Shown: piece after piece, positions 10,586 to 20,539 of the stretch
Layout: each line of letters opens with the position of its first letter
How positions within the stretch are numbered: the stretch's first letter is position 1
DNA from: Synechocystis sp. LKSZ1
Lineage (GTDB): Bacteria > Cyanobacteriota > Cyanobacteriia > Cyanobacteriales > Microcystaceae
Assembly: GCF_040436315.1 (NCBI RefSeq)
Contig: NZ_AP031572.1
Location: forward strand, 2,542,001-2,606,000
DNA length: 64,000 bases
Reading direction: 5' to 3'
Made by a program: the position numbers and the translations under genes
The notes under the pieces: generated by a model
Told to the model about the DNA's origin: nothing
Database searches by the model: none
Seen by the model: the letters and a program-made list of their open reading frames with translations, nothing else

Positions 10586-10953
10586 CTTACATGAAGCCGA
10601 TGGTAGCTAGACCTCCTTATTTGATAATAATTTTAAGTATCTTTACAAATAATTGCGAAAGACTCATGTTCTTGTTATTCTCAATACATCTTAAGTAGAA
10701 AGTACTTACAGGCGATTTAGGAAACAAGCAATATCATCTATAAGCGAATAGCATTATGTCGTTTGCTTCGCTATTTTATGGCTTTTTTGTTTCACTTTAA
10801 ACTTCTGGTTATAGATAAATTTTTTGATTTTTATACGGTGAGAAATGTACCTCATCTTAAGACTGTAGATAGTTCCAATAAATGCTTACTCATCGCTCTC
10901 ACAGACGACAGAAACCTATTGAGGTTCATGCTCTTTATCCTAGATATCCACTG
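10586..10953 (+). other. AT-rich intergenic leader of the giant helicase gene
   Basis: About 370 bases without a convincing gene. Composition changes sharply to AT-rich at its left edge. It holds a sigma70-like pair TTGCGA (10653-10658) and TATTCT (10676-10681) with a 17-nt spacer, and a second weaker pair TTATAG (10809-10814) and TATACG (10832-10837), also 17 nt apart. A 6-bp inverted repeat AGCGAA / TTCGCT lies near 10742-10775. No repeat marking an attachment site was seen. Confidence 0.4.
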
Positions 10954-13900
10954 ATGGGAGTTATTACATGGACATCAGATAAAGCATTTGGTCATATAAA
11001 ACCTGATATTAATATCATAAATTTTTATCTGGGAAGGGTTTTTGCAAACATTACTGGATATAAGGTCTTTGCACATATTACTGGATATAAAGGGCATCAT
11101 TCTAGAGATTGGCTAAGACAAAATGATATTTCTAATGAAAGATGCCTATTTACTCTTGGAGTAAGTCCTCATGAATATCAAAGAAATGGCAGAGCAATCG
11201 CTATTAATTGGCTTCTTGAAAGTGATCTTGCAGATCCAGAATCTCTCGAAACTTATTACTCAGATAGGCTAAAAGCACTAGCCAACTTTCCATCATCGTC
11301 ATTAAATAATATTCTACAGTCTCAATGGTACGTTGATTTATGGACAAGAAGTGGAGTTTTTAATTATCCACAAGTTAAGCTTGACCTAGACATTGATCCA
11401 TTACTTGCATCAGTAATAGATCAGTATGAGCAAAAAATTGAAAGTATTGAAGAATACAAAAGATGGATAAAAATTAAGCAAAAATCACCTTATTTTGCTA
11501 TAAATGAAGCAGAGAAAAACAGTCTTAAGCAACAAATGCTTGAAGCATTAAGGCAAAAGCCTACTGCGTTTTTTTCTAATCTGTCTTATAGTGAACTAAT
11601 TAACTTAATAGATGAATGCGAGCAATTCCTGCCTGATAATTTCTGGAGCCGTACATTAGCAGAGTTATCGGTAATGATGAAACCTCAGGAGCTGATTCAA
11701 ATTACTGAAAAGCTTACTGATTTAGACCGCCAAAAAGATTACATAAATGCTGTTTTTTCTGGTCGTACAATTGCTGTTGATATTGAAAGTGATGGAAAGC
11801 AAATTTATCAAATGGGCTGGTACATAAATGGACAAAGATCTCTTGAATCAGATAATGTTGCATTAAGCAATATTAGAAAAATTTTAGAAAAAATAGAAAC
11901 TCATGCTAATAGGCAACCACTTCAATGGTTAGTTGGTCATAACATAATTGCCTGGGATTTACCTATTCTGCGCCAATTCTATTCCAACTTTTTCCAAAAT
12001 ATTCCCGTCTGGGATACTCTATTGATATCATGGTTGCTAGAACCTTGGAAAAAAAGCCACGCCCTCACAACCTCAGACAAAGCCCACCAAGCTGACTATG
12101 ACGCAGAGGCGACTTTTCAACTTTTTCAACAACAACTTCCATATTTGCCTCAAAAGTTCAGAGAGTCACAAATTGAACAAGCGACTAATCCCCTTCAATG
12201 CCTGTATGAGTCTGGCGAAAGTATTGAGCGCTTAGGTGATTTAAAATATCCATCTTTGTCAGCTAATTTTGCTCAGTCTCCGAGGCTAATTGTTGTATCA
12301 AAATGGCGATTATGGTCAGAATTTGCGTGGCGGCCCAAGGTTATTCATGCTTATTCCGATGCCCAAATTCTCTCACCAGACAAACTAGACGAAGCGGTCG
12401 TTAATCATCCAGATAACGCTGGGCTAATGGCAATTGCTTGTGTCGTCAGAGATGCGGCAAACTACCAGATTCAAGTCACACTAGCCATGCTACCTGCTTG
12501 GTTAAAAGAACAAGTAGTCCAAATTCTCCCAAATTGTATTGATAATGATTTAGTACCAGATTTACGAGACTCTGGTGATTATATTCAAGTTACAACCTAT
12601 AGTGCCTACCGAAATGATATTGCTCAATTTCCAAACACAGAAAATATCCAACTAATCCATGCAGAAGAAAGCTATCTGGAGTTGATACCGCAAAGTCTAA
12701 GCCTGTCAATTACCGATGTTAACAAGCTTAATTTACCTGTCTCTAAACTTCCTACTCGTGATGAATTTAGTACAAATTCGCTCTTTGCCCAAAGTTTGTT
12801 CCAGCTTATAGACGAAGCCTCACTTTTACAATTAGTCCGTCAAGATGAGCTTCCCAAGTTTCGCTACTGGCTAGAATACAATCCTGTAGCCTTGCAAGAA
12901 ACCAATCACCCTTGCTGGTGGCTCCATCGATTTTGGAAGCAATTGCCGTCATTATTGACAATTCAAGAAACCAGTTCTAATTCCAACGATCAGGCAATAG
13001 CCACCTTGCCTCGCTGGCAAGCTACAGGAACATCGTACAACCGACTTGCTGAAGAAGCCATTCCCCCAACCTCTGGTAATCGTTTACGCTACTGGGAAGC
13101 TACCTTACTTCGATTATTTGCCCTTGCCGCTGTTTATAGCGATGAAACTACCATTGTTCTCCTAGCCACTCATTCCCGCGAAGTAGAGGCCATCACCCAT
13201 GTATTAGCTAATTTAGGACAAACTTATCGAGTGTCCAGTAGTGTGCTACGGGTCTTAGAAACCCTTCACCGTCGAGGAATGCGTCTAGCGGTTGATACCG
13301 TCAACAATGCTCACCTTTGGTTAGAAGCCTCTGAAACCTTGAGCTATCCCGTCCAATTGGTTATTGAGTCCTTGCCACTTTATCAGTGGTGGATCTGCCT
13401 AAACTCACAAGCCATTACGGAAGACCTCTCAATTCAACCAGAAGAAAATTTAGAACAAGAGCATGAAGCTGACGAAGACGAGAGTAACAGCGACGATGAT
13501 ATGGATGGCGCTGATCCTGAAATTTTGGACTCATTCACTCAATATGAATCTTCGTCGGTACCTCCTCGTCAACCTATTCCCGTCAGGCTGTCAGAAAGTG
13601 ATGTCTTAAACTGCCTTGATTACTATTTGAGACCTTGGCTCAATGGACTTTTGCAGTGCGAAACAGTTAAGTCCGTGCCCATTATCCTAGACTCTCGGCT
13701 GGACAGCGTTAGACTCAACCGAAGAAACGACTTGGTACGCCAAGACATCCCCATTTCCCCGCCAACTGAGGCAGAGGAAACAAGATTAATCGAAGCACTC
13801 AGAGATGGACTTGGAGAATTGGAGCGTCAGATAGCACCCACAGATTACGAATCCTATCGAGCTTTTCTCCAGGCCAACTGGGATTATCCAGACTTTAGAG

Positions 13901-16900
13901 AAAATACTCAAAAGCCTGCCATCGAAGCCATTATTCCTAACAACCAAGATGTTTTAGTTCGCCTGCCCACGGGTGAAGGCAAATCGGTCTTGTTCCAGGT
14001 GCCAGCTCTACTGCGCGGTTTCCATACACAAAGGCTGACTCTAGTGATTACTCCCCTACGGGCCCTTATGGCAGATCAGGTCAAAAGTCTGTGGGCTAAG
14101 GGATTTTTGCAGTCGGTCGATTACTTGAGCGGAGATCGTGATTCTTGGGTGATGGATGAGGTATACCAAGGGATTGTAGATAATCGTATCAAACTGCTGT
14201 TTGTTGCTCCGGAGCGGTTCCGTGTAAAGCGTTTTCGGGAGGCCCTACAGCGTCGGTACGACATTGATAATGGATTTGAGTACGTCGTCATCGATGAAGC
14301 GCACTGCATCAGCCAGTGGGGGTTCGAGTTTCGACCCGATTATTTATATGTGATGAAAGAAATTCGGCGTTGCTACAGCAATACTCATCTACTCATGTTT
14401 TCTGCTACCGTTACAGAAGCTGTTAGAAGCGAGCTAGAACGAGAAGCTGGTATTGCAGAAGGTGAACGTGCCTATGTCGCACGTCCTGAAACTATGCGGC
14501 ATCCCATTCAGCCATTTATTCATCTGGGTGCTGAAAATGTCGGCACATCAATTTTTGGTAAAGATCCAGATGCCCTCATTTCTAACCGCATTGGTTATAT
14601 AGAAGAAGCTATCAAAAAAGCCAACCCAAAGATTAGTAGTATTATTATATTTGTTACTCGAAAAAATCATGCAGAGATACTGTGCAGACTACTCAAGGAG
14701 CGTCAAGAAGTGGATGCTACAGTTGAATATTTTCATGCGGGTCTGGAGGCCGAGACACGCCTTGAGATCTATGAAGCCTTTTTAGAGCGGCAAATACAGG
14801 TTCTAATTTGTACCAAAGCCTTTGGGATGGGAATGGATATTCCCCACATCCATTGGTGTATCCATCTCGCACCGCCACCTTACCTCGAAGACTATTTGCA
14901 AGAAGTGGGTAGAATTGGACGAGATCGCTTGTTGAGAGAAGAGGCTGGCCTCGACAGGTTAGAAGGAAAATTACTGTATGCACTGGCGGATTTCGATAAA
15001 AATCACGCTCAGATTAAAGAAAGCCGAATTACGCCCCCTATGCTTATCAAACTCTGGAACAGCATTCGGGACGCATCTAGACCATTAGCTCAAACCAATC
15101 AACAGGTCTGTATCATTCCAGTTGATCAATTTGATGATCTCACAGAAAATGCTCTAAGAAGTCATCTTTTTTGGCTAGAAAGATGTGAAAGAATTGAAAT
15201 CAAGGGTTATTTAGCGGGACTGCTTAAAATTCAAATTAATCGCGCTCAACTCGAAAAAGATGCTAATAAATCTAGTGATATTGGCTTACTTGCTCAAGCT
15301 TTGTTGGAAATCTACTCTCAATCTCCTAGCGACTCTCAAATATTATCTGAATCTCCAGAAAATATACCTAGAGAATCATCTGGTTTTCTAGATAATTTAT
15401 TTGGCTTTGCAAAAGACTTTCTTGGCTTTTTATTTGGCTCAAAATCAAATTCAACTAGAGTAGATTCAGCAATTGTTAAAGCTCAACAAGGTTCTGAAGC
15501 CAAGTCTAGTCAAACAATCCAAGAATTAGATGAAGCAGAAATTAAAATAGATTCTCTATGGCAGAAATCTGATTTACCTCGATTGGATGACGTCTATCAT
15601 GCTCTTTATCAATTAAATCGCTCTGGTAGTATTAAAATCTTAAGAGAAATTGAGTTTGAAGAAGGTAAGTATAACAACCTTCAAGCTCAAATGTGGACTT
15701 GGCTTGACAAGGTTTTGGAATTTCTTCTGGTCAGCTCTAATGATGTCAATAGAAGTATTTCAATCGAAATGATGCTGGCATCAATAAACAAAGCTGTTCT
15801 AGAGAAAGAAGAAGGTCAAAATATTACTCAAAGAAGAATGCAAAGCTCTCAGAGAAGAGTTGTGAGATCTGCAATCAAACTCTGTAATGATAGCTCTTTA
15901 AGGATTCGCGAAACTGTTGACAAAGAGAATAATATAATTTGGCAGTATACATTATCTAGAGAGCGCAAACAAATTATTGAAAAAAGGCTCAAAAACATTC
16001 AGTATCTAGCAAGTGAGATTGCTAAAAAATTAGCAACTGAATCAAGCTTAAGCTTAGCTAAATTATTAGAATGCTGTCAGACATCAATTAGTATTCGAGA
16101 CCTAAAAGCAGCTCTCAGACTGCTCTCTAATCTCGGCCTCTATAGAAACCAGAAAAAACTAACGACTTATAGCTATATTGTAGCAGTTCACAAAATAGAT
16201 AAAAATCTTGTCTCTCCAGGTGCTGAAGGTATCTTGGAAAGTGATTGTGAAATGTATGAGTGCTTAGCCAGAGTAAATAAAATGGCTGAGTTTCGCTCTT
16301 TTGCAACAGAGTTATATGCTTTATTGCCAGATAGTATGAAATCAGCTTATATCGATAAGTACTTCTCGGCTGATTCACCTGAAGAATTGCAGAAAGTGAT
16401 AGAAAAAAGTGTTGGCGAAATCGAGGAAGAAACCCTGCAACGAAATGCTGATTTATTAAATTTGTTAACTCGAGTTCGTCAAGAAGCATTTACTAAAGAA
16501 ATAGAGAAGCTAAGTGCAGAGCAATTGCTAGTTTGTCAGTTTCCTTATAACAAAAACTTGTTGGTCAATGCCGGCCCTGGCGCTGGTAAAACTCATGTCT
16601 TAATGATGAGGTGTGCAGACCTAATTTATCGCCAGGGGATACAGCCACGTGAAATTCTAGTTTTAGCCTTTAATCGCGCTGTTGTATATGAAATTAAAAA
16701 GAGAATTAGTCGGTTATTTACTGAGTTGGGCTATGGGTCTTATGTTCAGCGACTGCAAGTTTACACATTCCACAGCTTTGCATTAAAAAATCTAGATAGC
16801 GATCTTAAGAGCTTAGAAGATTCTCTGCATGAATTTGCTCTAAAAATGGCAGAAAATAGTGATTTTAGAGAACAAGTTGCTAGCCAGTATCGAGCAATTC

Positions 16901-18357
16901 TTGTTGATGAATTTCAAGATATGAATGAGGATTTTTATAGTGTTATTAATTCTCTTTATAAAGCCTCTGGTGCAGGTGTAATGGTCATTGGAGATGATGA
17001 TCAGGATATTCTTTTATGGAATCGATTGAAAAATCAACAGCTATGGCTAGCGGATTTTGGTCAAGCTCGTCTTCACGCTCACCAATACTTCGATGATTTT
17101 CAAACTAATTTTAATGCAGAATATCTTAATTTAACCTTTAACTATCGGTCAGCTATATCGATTGTAGAGCGCTCTCAATCATATACAAACAAAATTACTA
17201 ACAGGCTACAAAGAAGATTAAAAAGTGATGTGAAATTAAGTGCTTTTAGGAATGATACTGGAAGTGTTTATAGTATAATTTCCAATCTTGAAGAAATAGT
17301 AAAAGCTTTATTAGATGATGAGAATAGTAAACATCAAAAGAGTATTGCTGTCTTATGTAGAACTAATGCTCAAGCTTCTGAGATATATGAGAACTTTAGA
17401 GAAAATGGATTTCAATCATTAAAGATTCAGCGTTCAGACGACCTAAAGCTGTCTCAGATACGGGAAATTGCAGAGTGGCTAGATATTTGTGAAAACTATC
17501 AACAAAATAATGGAGAAATTTCTCTTTCTAATCAACTTTATTTACAGTTAATTAAACAATACAATCAATATAATTTAGCTGACCATGTTAAAGGGAAAGC
17601 ACAGATTGAAGAACTGTGGAATGCAACTTTAATAGAGAATAGCAATAACAGCATTTTAAGTCAACATATTGAGTTTATAAAAGACTTAAAAACTTCAGAT
17701 TTTGAGCGCGTTGTCAACCAGGTTTCATCTAGCAATTACAATATCACAATTTCAACAATCAATAAGGTTAAAGGGCTGGAGTTTGATGTTGTTTTTGTTA
17801 CTTCTTCTCAGGCTCGTTTTCCACTTACTAATAATCCTAATTCTGGAATTAAACTAAGGGATTTTGCTGCTGAAGAAGCCCGACTGTATTATGTGGCTCT
17901 GACTCGTGCTAAGAATACTCTTTACTTTAGTTGGGGAGATAGAGAAAAGTCTTGGAAAGATCTTAATCAATATACTAGCGTTAATCAAAATAGAGTTTTC
18001 CTTGAAGGTATTCCAGATGAGGTTTTTATTTCTTGGCCTGGATTTTCTATAGAATATAGATTTGGTTCTAATTTACGAGTTCAAGACCTTCAAAACTATA
18101 TTAAATCTCAAGTTAAAGTTAATGACTTGGTGCGTGTTAATCAAAGAACTATCTGTCATGGCAAAGACAATACAAGAATAGCAATACTAAGTAAGGATTT
18201 CTCGGGAAATAGTAATTCAAAGCTGAGAGTAAGTAATGTTTATCGCTATCCTGTTGATCTTCAAAGAATTAATGAGAATATTCTTAATAAAATCGCGCCT
18301 AAAATTAGAGAACAGGGTTGGTTATACACTGTATTACTAACTGGAAGACTCACTTGA
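10954..18357 (+). CDS. Giant multidomain protein: cold-shock-like / DEDDh exonuclease / degenerate DinG-like / RecQ helicase / UvrD helicase
   Basis: 2467 residues from ATG 10954; an in-frame ATG at 10882 would add 24 residues. 10954 is preferred because MGVITWTSDKAFGHIKPD then opens a cold-shock-like fold (about 1-90, with KVFAHITGYKG). Next is a DEDDh exonuclease: D276 and E278, GHN at 328-330 with D335, H378 and D383 in HQADYDA. Residues about 400-830 resemble a decayed DinG helicase (LIHAEES near 568-574 where DEAH would be). After an acidic linker (about 830-865) comes a RecQ-type SF2 helicase: TGEGKS 1006-1011, DEAH 1114-1117 followed by CISQWGFEFRPDY, and QEVGRIGR 1316-1323. The C-terminus is a UvrD-type SF1 helicase: GPGAGKT 1874-1880, DEFQD 1985-1989, GDDDQD, YVALTRAK 2313-2320. 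Codon use is AT-rich, unlike neighbours. Role unknown: DNA repair, or defence against foreign DNA, is inference. Confidence 0.9.
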   Translation: MGVITWTSDKAFGHIKPDINIINFYLGRVFANITGYKVFAHITGYKGHHSRDWLRQNDISNERCLFTLGVSPHEYQRNGRAIAINWLLESDLADPESLETYYSDRLKALANFPSSSLNNILQSQWYVDLWTRSGVFNYPQVKLDLDIDPLLASVIDQYEQKIESIEEYKRWIKIKQKSPYFAINEAEKNSLKQQMLEALRQKPTAFFSNLSYSELINLIDECEQFLPDNFWSRTLAELSVMMKPQELIQITEKLTDLDRQKDYINAVFSGRTIAVDIESDGKQIYQMGWYINGQRSLESDNVALSNIRKILEKIETHANRQPLQWLVGHNIIAWDLPILRQFYSNFFQNIPVWDTLLISWLLEPWKKSHALTTSDKAHQADYDAEATFQLFQQQLPYLPQKFRESQIEQATNPLQCLYESGESIERLGDLKYPSLSANFAQSPRLIVVSKWRLWSEFAWRPKVIHAYSDAQILSPDKLDEAVVNHPDNAGLMAIACVVRDAANYQIQVTLAMLPAWLKEQVVQILPNCIDNDLVPDLRDSGDYIQVTTYSAYRNDIAQFPNTENIQLIHAEESYLELIPQSLSLSITDVNKLNLPVSKLPTRDEFSTNSLFAQSLFQLIDEASLLQLVRQDELPKFRYWLEYNPVALQETNHPCWWLHRFWKQLPSLLTIQETSSNSNDQAIATLPRWQATGTSYNRLAEEAIPPTSGNRLRYWEATLLRLFALAAVYSDETTIVLLATHSREVEAITHVLANLGQTYRVSSSVLRVLETLHRRGMRLAVDTVNNAHLWLEASETLSYPVQLVIESLPLYQWWICLNSQAITEDLSIQPEENLEQEHEADEDESNSDDDMDGADPEILDSFTQYESSSVPPRQPIPVRLSESDVLNCLDYYLRPWLNGLLQCETVKSVPIILDSRLDSVRLNRRNDLVRQDIPISPPTEAEETRLIEALRDGLGELERQIAPTDYESYRAFLQANWDYPDFRENTQKPAIEAIIPNNQDVLVRLPTGEGKSVLFQVPALLRGFHTQRLTLVITPLRALMADQVKSLWAKGFLQSVDYLSGDRDSWVMDEVYQGIVDNRIKLLFVAPERFRVKRFREALQRRYDIDNGFEYVVIDEAHCISQWGFEFRPDYLYVMKEIRRCYSNTHLLMFSATVTEAVRSELEREAGIAEGERAYVARPETMRHPIQPFIHLGAENVGTSIFGKDPDALISNRIGYIEEAIKKANPKISSIIIFVTRKNHAEILCRLLKERQEVDATVEYFHAGLEAETRLEIYEAFLERQIQVLICTKAFGMGMDIPHIHWCIHLAPPPYLEDYLQEVGRIGRDRLLREEAGLDRLEGKLLYALADFDKNHAQIKESRITPPMLIKLWNSIRDASRPLAQTNQQVCIIPVDQFDDLTENALRSHLFWLERCERIEIKGYLAGLLKIQINRAQLEKDANKSSDIGLLAQALLEIYSQSPSDSQILSESPENIPRESSGFLDNLFGFAKDFLGFLFGSKSNSTRVDSAIVKAQQGSEAKSSQTIQELDEAEIKIDSLWQKSDLPRLDDVYHALYQLNRSGSIKILREIEFEEGKYNNLQAQMWTWLDKVLEFLLVSSNDVNRSISIEMMLASINKAVLEKEEGQNITQRRMQSSQRRVVRSAIKLCNDSSLRIRETVDKENNIIWQYTLSRERKQIIEKRLKNIQYLASEIAKKLATESSLSLAKLLECCQTSISIRDLKAALRLLSNLGLYRNQKKLTTYSYIVAVHKIDKNLVSPGAEGILESDCEMYECLARVNKMAEFRSFATELYALLPDSMKSAYIDKYFSADSPEELQKVIEKSVGEIEEETLQRNADLLNLLTRVRQEAFTKEIEKLSAEQLLVCQFPYNKNLLVNAGPGAGKTHVLMMRCADLIYRQGIQPREILVLAFNRAVVYEIKKRISRLFTELGYGSYVQRLQVYTFHSFALKNLDSDLKSLEDSLHEFALKMAENSDFREQVASQYRAILVDEFQDMNEDFYSVINSLYKASGAGVMVIGDDDQDILLWNRLKNQQLWLADFGQARLHAHQYFDDFQTNFNAEYLNLTFNYRSAISIVERSQSYTNKITNRLQRRLKSDVKLSAFRNDTGSVYSIISNLEEIVKALLDDENSKHQKSIAVLCRTNAQASEIYENFRENGFQSLKIQRSDDLKLSQIREIAEWLDICENYQQNNGEISLSNQLYLQLIKQYNQYNLADHVKGKAQIEELWNATLIENSNNSILSQHIEFIKDLKTSDFERVVNQVSSSNYNITISTINKVKGLEFDVVFVTSSQARFPLTNNPNSGIKLRDFAAEEARLYYVALTRAKNTLYFSWGDREKSWKDLNQYTSVNQNRVFLEGIPDEVFISWPGFSIEYRFGSNLRVQDLQNYIKSQVKVNDLVRVNQRTICHGKDNTRIAILSKDFSGNSNSKLRVSNVYRYPVDLQRINENILNKIAPKIREQGWLYTVLLTGRLT

Positions 18358-18457
18358 ATTTTTTAGGTGAAATTAGCTATTGATTTATTGCAGAAATATT
18401 GAATGGTTTATTTGAACCACCAAGGAATAGACACAACGATTCTGTAAAAGCCCAGAT

Positions 18458-19480
18458 TCAACAATTTACCACTAACTCTCTTAGCCAGTGTACATAACTT
18501 ATTTTTTCACACATAAATGCCTGTAAATACCGTAGCTTATCTAATAAAGATTCCCCAAACTCTTTCGGAATTCTTACCAATCTCAACATTAAATATCCAA
18601 TCAGGCAACTATAAATCTGAATCTCTATTCCGTTTGTATTTTTAGTGATTAGCCTGTCCAACTTTAAGTGCATTTTTAAGAACTTCCATAATAGTTCTAT
18701 TTGCCAACGCAATCGATAAAACTCAGCTATCTCTTCATTACTTATTCCTCCCTCTCCCTCTTCTGGTAAATTTGTTGCCAACCTAAACTCTGTTCTTTCT
18801 TCTCTATCACTAAATACTACTACTCTTCCTTCTAGCTTTTCCTTCCCACTTCCTATTTCATACTTTCCATTTTCCAGCATATTTAAGCTTATATTGTTCT
18901 TTGTTCTTAACACAAAGTAACGCTCTTTCTCTTCTTGCAGTTTTGCTATTCTTGCTAGACTACAAAATCCTCTATCCATTATCCCAACTCCATTCTCTGG
19001 CGTTGCTTCTATCGTTTCATTCCCATATTTACTATCATGCCCTTGACCAAAATTAATTACTATTCCTCCTGGGGCTCCTGTGTCTAAATTAATCCCACTA
19101 AATAGTTTTACCTGATGATGTCCTTGTCTCCATAATAATTTGCTCGTTAACGATATCACTGTTGAGTCCAGTGGAAACAAAACCAGTTCCCTTTTTTCTG
19201 GTTCTCGAGAGACTTCTACTTCTTTTTTTAGCTTTTTTAATATTTCTTTAAAAACCTTTGGGTTTCGCTTTTTACTTGCTTTTGAGAAGGTCGATATATC
19301 TACTGACTCTCCTCTCGCGTTTAATCTCTTGAATTGACTTCTCATGCTTGTTTGGCTTTGGTCTAGCACGAAACTTAGCCAAATTGAGACAAACTTAAAG
19401 GTGTCCAGTTCTGGATAATCCTTTTTGGGCAAGTGACCCAGATGCTTTTGCACAACTTGAGGAAAGTTTGATATAATCAT
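18458..19480 (-). CDS. IS4-family DDE transposase
   Basis: A 340-residue transposase with an intact catalytic triad: D105 in FPLDSTVIS, D169 in GIMDRGFCS and E262 in the perfect IS4 YREK pattern (Y255, R258, E262, K269 in YRLRWQIELLWKFLK). Length is normal for compact cyanobacterial IS4 members with a helical N-terminal domain containing a paired RGESVDISTFSKAS segment. No frameshift is visible, so the element may be active. Its stop lies about 100 bp after the giant helicase gene, on the opposite strand. It is a marker for past mobility at this locus, though it may equally be a later insertion into already foreign DNA. Confidence 0.9.
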   Translation of the reverse strand: MIISNFPQVVQKHLGHLPKKDYPELDTFKFVSIWLSFVLDQSQTSMRSQFKRLNARGESVDISTFSKASKKRNPKVFKEILKKLKKEVEVSREPEKRELVLFPLDSTVISLTSKLLWRQGHHQVKLFSGINLDTGAPGGIVINFGQGHDSKYGNETIEATPENGVGIMDRGFCSLARIAKLQEEKERYFVLRTKNNISLNMLENGKYEIGSGKEKLEGRVVVFSDREERTEFRLATNLPEEGEGGISNEEIAEFYRLRWQIELLWKFLKMHLKLDRLITKNTNGIEIQIYSCLIGYLMLRLVRIPKEFGESLLDKLRYLQAFMCEKISYVHWLRELVVNC

Positions 19481-19527: not shown

Positions 19528-19676
19528 TTTACCTTTTTGATTTTCTTCTAACATTCAACACTTCTGGATTTATTGAGTATTAGTTTATTAAAATTGGATA
19601 AAGCAAAAATACTAAATTAATAACATTTAGTTCTCTCTATTTTTGACAAATTTCTTATTATTATCCTTCCTTTGGA

Positions 19677-20313: not shown

Positions 20314-20539
20314 AGGAGATGATAAAGGGAATTTTCCATCAGTATATCCCCAAAGCTTCAGACCACGGGACTAGTCATTTGACAATGGATTTAGCGCTGA
20401 AACCTCTACTAAAAAAGAATTTGAATTCCCTACTTTCCTCTGACTCAAAAACCTGCTCCTATCCAGGGTCACAGATAAGTGTCAATGGATAACTAGGGAG
20501 ACGCCGCGACTCTTCATGCTTTGTCAAGTTACCCGCTGA

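Follow-up and report, generated by a model that had tools for sequence, protein, structure and literature searches.

Single-protein and two-protein helicase-nuclease immune systems are already known, namely Hna, Hachiman and Gabija. In Gabija, the UvrD-like GajB works with a partner nuclease, GajA. RecBCD, AddAB and AdnAB handle DNA ends using two motors or motor-like units of the SF1 type together with a RecB-type nuclease, and in the domain order of WRN an exonuclease is joined to a RecQ motor. In the portions of the published accounts available, Hna is described as a single-chain anti-phage helicase-nuclease of 845 aa with 3'-5' single-strand exonuclease activity, laid out as one DinG-like SF2 motor followed by a C-terminal PD-(D/E)XK nuclease; the two activities, ATPase and 3'-5' exonuclease, are in competition, and a phage SSB sets the nuclease free (PMC13381803). 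Likewise, from the excerpts of the respective sources, Hachiman HamB follows a helicase-nuclease logic (PMC12278908) and the Staphylococcus aureus member of ExoDinG is a 3'-5' exonuclease (PMC11981726).

The window analysed here is a stretch of 64,000 nucleotides of Synechocystis sp. LKSZ1, whose genome forms one contig of 3.67 Mb. Two matches to photosystem II that exceed the cut-off mark the host as a cyanobacterium; among 14 control genomes, Synechococcus was the single one to give a match. An initial annotation of this DNA had proposed an uninterrupted giant frame, and a single open frame does run from an ATG at 10882 to a stop at 18357 (2491 aa). The start chosen in that annotation, at 10954 (2467 aa), is plausible because the cold-shock-like part begins there. 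The order of the encoded parts is cold-shock-like, DEDDh exonuclease, middle region, RecQ-type SF2 motor and UvrD-type SF1 motor (Table 1); the order of the domains other than the middle region, and the presence of two motors with intact motifs, had been claimed from the first and were borne out by Pfam, by the catalytic residues and by conservation in the family.

Table 1. Features of the giant ORF and of the adjoining insertion sequence (window positions; residues of the 2491-aa protein).
Feature	Start	End	Strand	Remarks
Giant ORF	10882	18357	+	2491 codons; alternative start 10954 gives 2467 codons
Divergent cold-shock/OB-like part	10957	11106	+	Residues 26-75; profile made from relatives
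DEDDh 3'-5' exonuclease domain (predicted)	11752	12144	+	Residues about 291-421; D300, E302, D359, H402, D407
Middle region	13069	13761	+	Residues 730-960; conserved in long class; low-confidence model
RecQ-type SF2 motor	13849	14961	+	Residues about 990-1360; K1034, DEAH at 1138, SAT at 1174, motif VI at 1340, aromatic-rich loop
Linker between motors	14962	16473	+	Residues 1361-1864; poorly conserved
UvrD-type SF1 motor	16474	17946	+	Residues about 1865-2355; K1903, DEFQD at 2009, YVALTRAK at 2337
C-terminal region	17947	18354	+	Conserved in family
IS4-type insertion sequence	18391	19566	-	Transposase 18458-19480; adjoins giant gene, outside system

Like Hna, the window protein carries a motor and a 3'-5' exonuclease, here a predicted one, on one polypeptide; unlike Hna, as far as the excerpts of its description extend, it places a DEDDh nuclease at the N terminus and follows it with two motors, RecQ and UvrD (PMC13381803). 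Nuclease type, motor type and the order DEDDh-RecQ-UvrD rule out that it is Hna. Helicase-nuclease logic is also shared with Hachiman, in the available part of its description, and GajB models match the UvrD part over a partial profile, but for both Gabija and Hachiman only motor pieces match and no GajA-like or HamA-like partner is seen beside the window gene; GajA was neither annotated nor matched among the neighbours examined. Models of the RecQ-like defence helicases PsyrT and DpdF match the RecQ part, but over about half or less of their profiles (positions 9-335 of 689 and 8-329 of 610, respectively), and the NCBIfam DpdF model reached 163 bits against a cut-off of 550. Membership of PsyrTA or Dpd was rejected, full-length PsyrT or DpdF being absent and the profile matches partial. 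WRN, which is among the PDB matches of the RecQ-type motor, and ExoDinG, in the excerpts of its source, similarly have an exonuclease N-terminal to an SF2 motor, but neither has a UvrD motor, and a likeness of the middle region to DinG is unsupported. RecBCD, AddAB and AdnAB differ in turn from the window protein, which pairs SF2 and SF1 motors with a DEDDh nuclease. Both motors are placed by Pfam, and no PADLOC model spans the whole protein. In full-text literature, where subscription papers are thinly represented, no description of an exo-RecQ-UvrD fusion was found, and the fusion is unmentioned in the retrieved parts of the literature on YprA, Hachiman (PMC12278908) and DinG (review; PMC11981726). 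TOTE conflict systems were considered because of the cold-shock-like part; a full-text search on TOTE returned nothing, and no TOTE domain is among the 15 Pfam matches (E<=1) of the window protein.

The suspicion that this protein is a lone oddity did not hold, as the exo-RecQ-UvrD order is kept by homologs in several phyla. The window gene is a member of a rare, scattered family found on chromosomes, plasmids and putatively viral contigs, with members already deposited as 'RecQ family ATP-dependent DNA helicase' or 'UvrD-helicase domain-containing protein'. There are two classes: a short class (exo-RecQ-UvrD, typically 1550-1800 aa) and a long class, which has the cold-shock-like and middle parts in addition. 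Using tblastn against plasmids, the parts of the long class were found in three genes of Rhodobacter sp. CZR27 (a 550-aa cold-shock-exonuclease, a 134-aa protein and a 1774-aa RecQ-UvrD protein), in two genes of Hymenobacter swuensis and in six ORF pieces of H. cellulosilyticus (L009). The statement that the gene has no partner is therefore true within the window, but relatives spread the same parts over two or three genes. A motif-pattern genome scan, from which at least 80 loci were kept, gave at least two loci encoding fused members. Algoriphagus aquimarinus encodes a fused member of 2713 aa in one ORF, and Anaerobiospirillum (L013:614-12535) a fused RecQ-UvrD protein of 3970 aa with no recognisable exonuclease and a huge N-terminal part. 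Short-class genes occur on plasmids of Aliarcobacter, Deinococcus, Bacteroides, Scytonema, Calothrix, Pseudanabaena, Nostoc, Croceicoccus, Rhizobium and Allochromatium and on 12 distinct IMG/VR contigs; they are also present in at least two of 373 genomes of the host's phylum, a lower bound as the query was the poorly conserved linker. Searches of phage collections returned 8 and 14 records, none of which covers 80 percent of the query.

A window-type gene is present in one of 386 genomes of the host's phylum, the window genome itself, which speaks against a ubiquitous housekeeping function. The phylum of Algoriphagus likewise gave one of 395 genomes, the centre of the survey itself, and in its order (presumably Cytophagales, as is annotated for Hymenobacter) a profile search found the middle region in seven of 390 genomes, centre included. 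A survey centred on Anaerobiospirillum (0 of 274) is uninformative because that protein itself has no middle region. Apparent chromosomal members are the window gene, the Algoriphagus contig and six Bacteroidota genomes, on contigs of unstated replicon type. In trees that contain long branches, the long class forms one clade for RecQ (4 rows, SH-aLRT 99) and for UvrD (6 rows, 98), and again in a 17-row UvrD tree (12 rows, 100/98). The trees set the fused members apart from generic RecQ and UvrD proteins almost without exception: one generic row falls among them in the RecQ tree, an exonuclease-RecQ ORF running to its contig end (L216), and one long-branched own-genome row in the UvrD tree. The long-class hosts belong to Cyanobacteriota, Pseudomonadota and Bacteroidota, which therefore argues for horizontal transfer.

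The exonuclease residues first reported as D276/E278/D335/H378/D383 are in place, these being D300/E302/D359/H402/D407 of the longer ORF, and all four acids and the ExoIII histidine of DEDDh exonucleases are present. Even at a threshold of E<=1, Pfam reports no exonuclease for the window protein. The core of the AlphaFold2 model is confident, with 10-residue means of 77-94 at residues 292-391 and 402-421 and 61 between them. Foldseek placed DnaQ-like folds at the top (best E 0.005; 0 of 442 matches at E<=0.001), the leading matches being the TREX1 homolog Plex9.1 and oligoribonuclease/REXO2. The predicted assignment as a DEDDh exonuclease is drawn from the DEDD columns in 28 members, the modelled core and these folds. 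In the family, 28 of 31 loci have a recognisable exonuclease and three (L013, L194 and L205) do not; it is therefore not essential throughout. The motif I acids (D and E) are present in all 26 aligned rows, two of the 28 being gapped, the motif II aspartate in 28 of 28 and the motif III aspartate in 27 of 28. The residue before the last aspartate is histidine in the long class and asparagine in most of the short class (22 of the 28 rows, for example L183 and L203), a replacement that may alter catalysis in short-class exonucleases.

Both motors were identified by Pfam, with DEAD (9e-31) and Helicase_C (3e-20) at about residues 1009-1348 and UvrD-helicase (1e-30) and UvrD_C (1e-22) at about residues 1880-2351. 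The motifs and aromatic-rich loop of the RecQ-type SF2 motor are present in all 28 members extracted, with nine invariant RecQ positions. Walker A, DEFQD, the motif III glutamine and the motif VI arginine of the UvrD-type SF1 motor are present in 30 of 30, with seven invariant positions. Some of these columns were favoured by sampling because the motifs doubled as search patterns; the RecQ Walker A and motif VI of both motors stood outside those patterns. Scores against the NCBIfam RecQ models are below the curated cut-offs (TIGR01389, 222.3 vs 640.2 bits; TIGR00614, 194.6 vs 219.8), as are those against the UvrD/PcrA models (TIGR01073, 125.9 vs 911.2 bits; TIGR01075, 112.3 vs 1144.45). Canonical RecQ has a zinc-binding cysteine cluster after the motor; this cluster is absent from the window protein, in which residues 1349-1500 contain only C1410 and C1435. 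The SF2 motor is RecQ-like and is not a canonical RecQ.

For the remaining parts the evidence is more indirect. The cold-shock-like domain of the initial annotation was recovered as a divergent part seen through relatives: Pfam shows none at E<=1 in the window protein itself, and the cold-shock match reached E=1e-5 in Rhodobacter (25.6 bits, under the 27-bit cut-off) and E=0.011 in Hymenobacter. With KAFGHIK and VFAHIT of the window protein, which we take to resemble RNP motifs, these relatives suggest a divergent cold-shock-like start, the weakest of the domain calls. A 27-bp imperfect tandem duplication lies inside this part (11037-11090). Mean pLDDT of the AlphaFold2 model was 49 for residues 262-985, confident in the exonuclease only, and 55 for residues 1345-2491. 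Local likeness had suggested a DinG/XPD origin for the middle region; a degenerate DinG/XPD module was rejected, as hhalign against 16 DinG-like proteins of relatives gave a probability of 0.3 percent.

A second arrangement of the long class was found in Bacteroidota, where six further genomes of the Algoriphagus order (L346-L351) have two genes each, making seven with H. swuensis (L010). In all seven unfragmented split loci the FSAT motif lies close to the end of the first protein, and the cut is right after RecQ motif III. The two genes overlap in every case (TAATG in three, ATGA in two, and 17 nt in L346 and H. swuensis). In all six new loci the first protein carries Walker A, whereas the second carries motif V (TKAFGMGMD), motif VI (QEVGRAGR or QEIGRAGR) and the checked UvrD motifs. 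The string DEAHCISQWG-FRPDY occurs in six of the seven first proteins, L351 being the one without it. The split forms and the fragmented L009 form one clade (98/97). It is a natural inference from the motifs that the RecQ ATP site would be shared between two chains in this clade: the first RecA lobe (motifs I-III) and the second lobe are on separate chains, and ATP hydrolysis would therefore require assembly of the complex.

The giant gene has a GC content of 0.386 and a GC3 of 0.30, compared with a GC3 of 0.48-0.63 in 17 other window genes, in keeping with the AT-richness noted earlier, and its codon usage is atypical. The host also encodes a RecQ-like protein (496-aa frame) and a UvrD-like protein (799-aa frame), each in a separate gene. 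Given evidence that includes this foreign composition and the sporadic distribution, the giant gene was most likely acquired horizontally. The adjacent transposase had been offered as a further sign of mobility; the adjacency is real, but the IS4-type element is a separate, late insertion, flanked by its own 9-bp duplication (GATTTATTG, at 18382-18390 and 19567-19575). It has its own inverted ends and eight other near-identical full-length copies in the host genome, which indicate recent activity. Carriage of the giant gene by this transposase is ruled out on these grounds; the element came in after and beside the gene and is uninformative on the gene's movement. The four other genomes of the genus gave no empty site; in them the left-flank genes are scattered and the right flank matches in short pieces only. 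A stretch of ~95 bp (20367-20461) has copies of 76-79 percent identity at four or more other sites in the host genome.

Gene neighbourhoods in the family include defence genes at some loci and not at others. In the long class, seven of 12 loci are near McrBC, type I restriction-modification (R-M), DISARM-like or Argonaute-type genes. McrBC adjoins the Algoriphagus gene, and neighbours of the split loci include McrB-like (1e-26) and McrC (2e-4) proteins in L347, HsdR and HsdS-like in L350, HsdM and HsdS-like in L351, a DREN-APAZ (Argonaute-type) match in L346 and, in H. swuensis, a DrmD-like protein and the PADLOC candidate PDC-S68; in Rhodobacter an Argonaute-associated REase-like protein is ~7 kb from the family genes. 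The other five (window, L009, L013, L348 and L349) have no clear defence gene in scans that covered part of the neighbours, and none for L009. L013 gave generic UvrD/GajB-like matches only, L348 has an HNH protein and another without a match, and L349 has a DNA polymerase IV-like neighbour. Beside the window gene, no defence gene was found among three neighbouring proteins scanned against PADLOC. Several short-class loci also have such neighbours, namely DISARM DrmA/B/C in Scytonema, a type IIG enzyme in L193, annotated type I R-M in Allochromatium, a BrxHI-like helicase in Nostoc, and an annotated HsdR N-terminal part and toxin-antitoxin genes in Pseudanabaena. The Aliarcobacter, Deinococcus, Bacteroides and Calothrix loci show no clear defence gene by annotation, and loci without one include L011, L012, L182 and L184, with neighbours scanned in part.

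On eight plasmids, 66 neighbours match 86 PADLOC families at 1e-15, and among the 25 of these families listed most are DISARM and related, from few proteins. Control windows on the same plasmids, made for eight of 13 annotated ones, contain 98 proteins matching 37 families, the 25 listed being PD-T4-6, RtcR-type, mad3/mad6 and MkoA models; one control window carries annotated toxin-antitoxin genes. For the 12 IMG/VR loci, 77 neighbours (of 99 candidate ORFs) match 81 Pfam families, and among the 25 families listed are six serine recombinases, four N6_N4_Mtase, three ResIII, one AlwI restriction enzyme, one AbiEi_3, one AEP-TOTE and one phage capsid. The frequent restriction and defence neighbours of relatives fit a defence role.

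Based on the domain order, the conserved catalytic residues, the sporadic distribution and the defence neighbours of relatives, the best reading is that the window protein would be a helicase-coupled 3'-5' exonuclease whose target is foreign or damaged DNA and whose working resembles that of Hna. Single-stranded DNA at ends, forks or gaps would be engaged by the cold-shock/OB-like start together with the motors. In known families, motors of both the RecQ and the UvrD type move 3'-5', the direction of DEDDh digestion, so the protein could track along one strand and remove it from the 3' end. ATP-driven movement may gate the nuclease, as reported for Hna. Substrate, polarity, gating and defence role are here what we infer for the window protein. 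It is predicted, with modest confidence, to be an all-in-one helicase-nuclease, horizontally acquired and most likely protecting the cell from foreign DNA (phage or plasmid).

A reading as accessory machinery for DNA repair or recombination, like a WRN-type exonuclease-RecQ joined to UvrD, which would act at damaged ends or forks and be of occasional benefit, is considered unlikely. The nearest named families of each motor are repair helicases, WRN has the same exonuclease-RecQ joining and L349 has its polymerase IV-like neighbour, but the sporadic distribution and foreign composition, beside separate host RecQ-like and UvrD-like genes, and the recurring restriction and defence neighbours argue against it. 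About as unlikely is a factor of plasmids and integrative elements that helps them to replicate or become established, or keeps rival elements out. The short-class genes on 10 plasmid records (L011, L012 and L182-L189), some near partition or replication genes, and the 12 IMG/VR contigs, with serine recombinases and a phage capsid among the 77 neighbours, point that way; the apparent chromosomal members do not, and the methyltransferases, ResIII and AlwI among the same neighbours fit cargo defence as well. A fusion of ordinary genes that arose by chance or is in decay, for which the broken L009 might speak, is highly improbable and largely refuted by order and motifs conserved in distant relatives, by 2491 open codons with intact catalytic residues and by supported clades.

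Returning to the reading as a defence helicase-nuclease, the parts are fused in some members and split in others, and would therefore work together. Tentatively, and with rather less assurance than for the window protein itself, the family may comprise dual-motor helicase-coupled DEDD exonucleases that act in immunity; their RecQ motor could be assembled from two separately encoded chains, and the window protein would be the fully fused form. If this is true, the pairing of SF2 and SF1 motors with a DEDD nuclease would add a new architecture to immunity and offer a compact test bed for the sharing of DNA by two motors of presumed equal polarity. Members of the family are already deposited in databases as generic helicases and are open to direct testing. 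The split-RecQ operons would represent a natural helicase in which the ATP site arises only when the subunits assemble, perhaps as a safety lock on a DNA-destroying enzyme.
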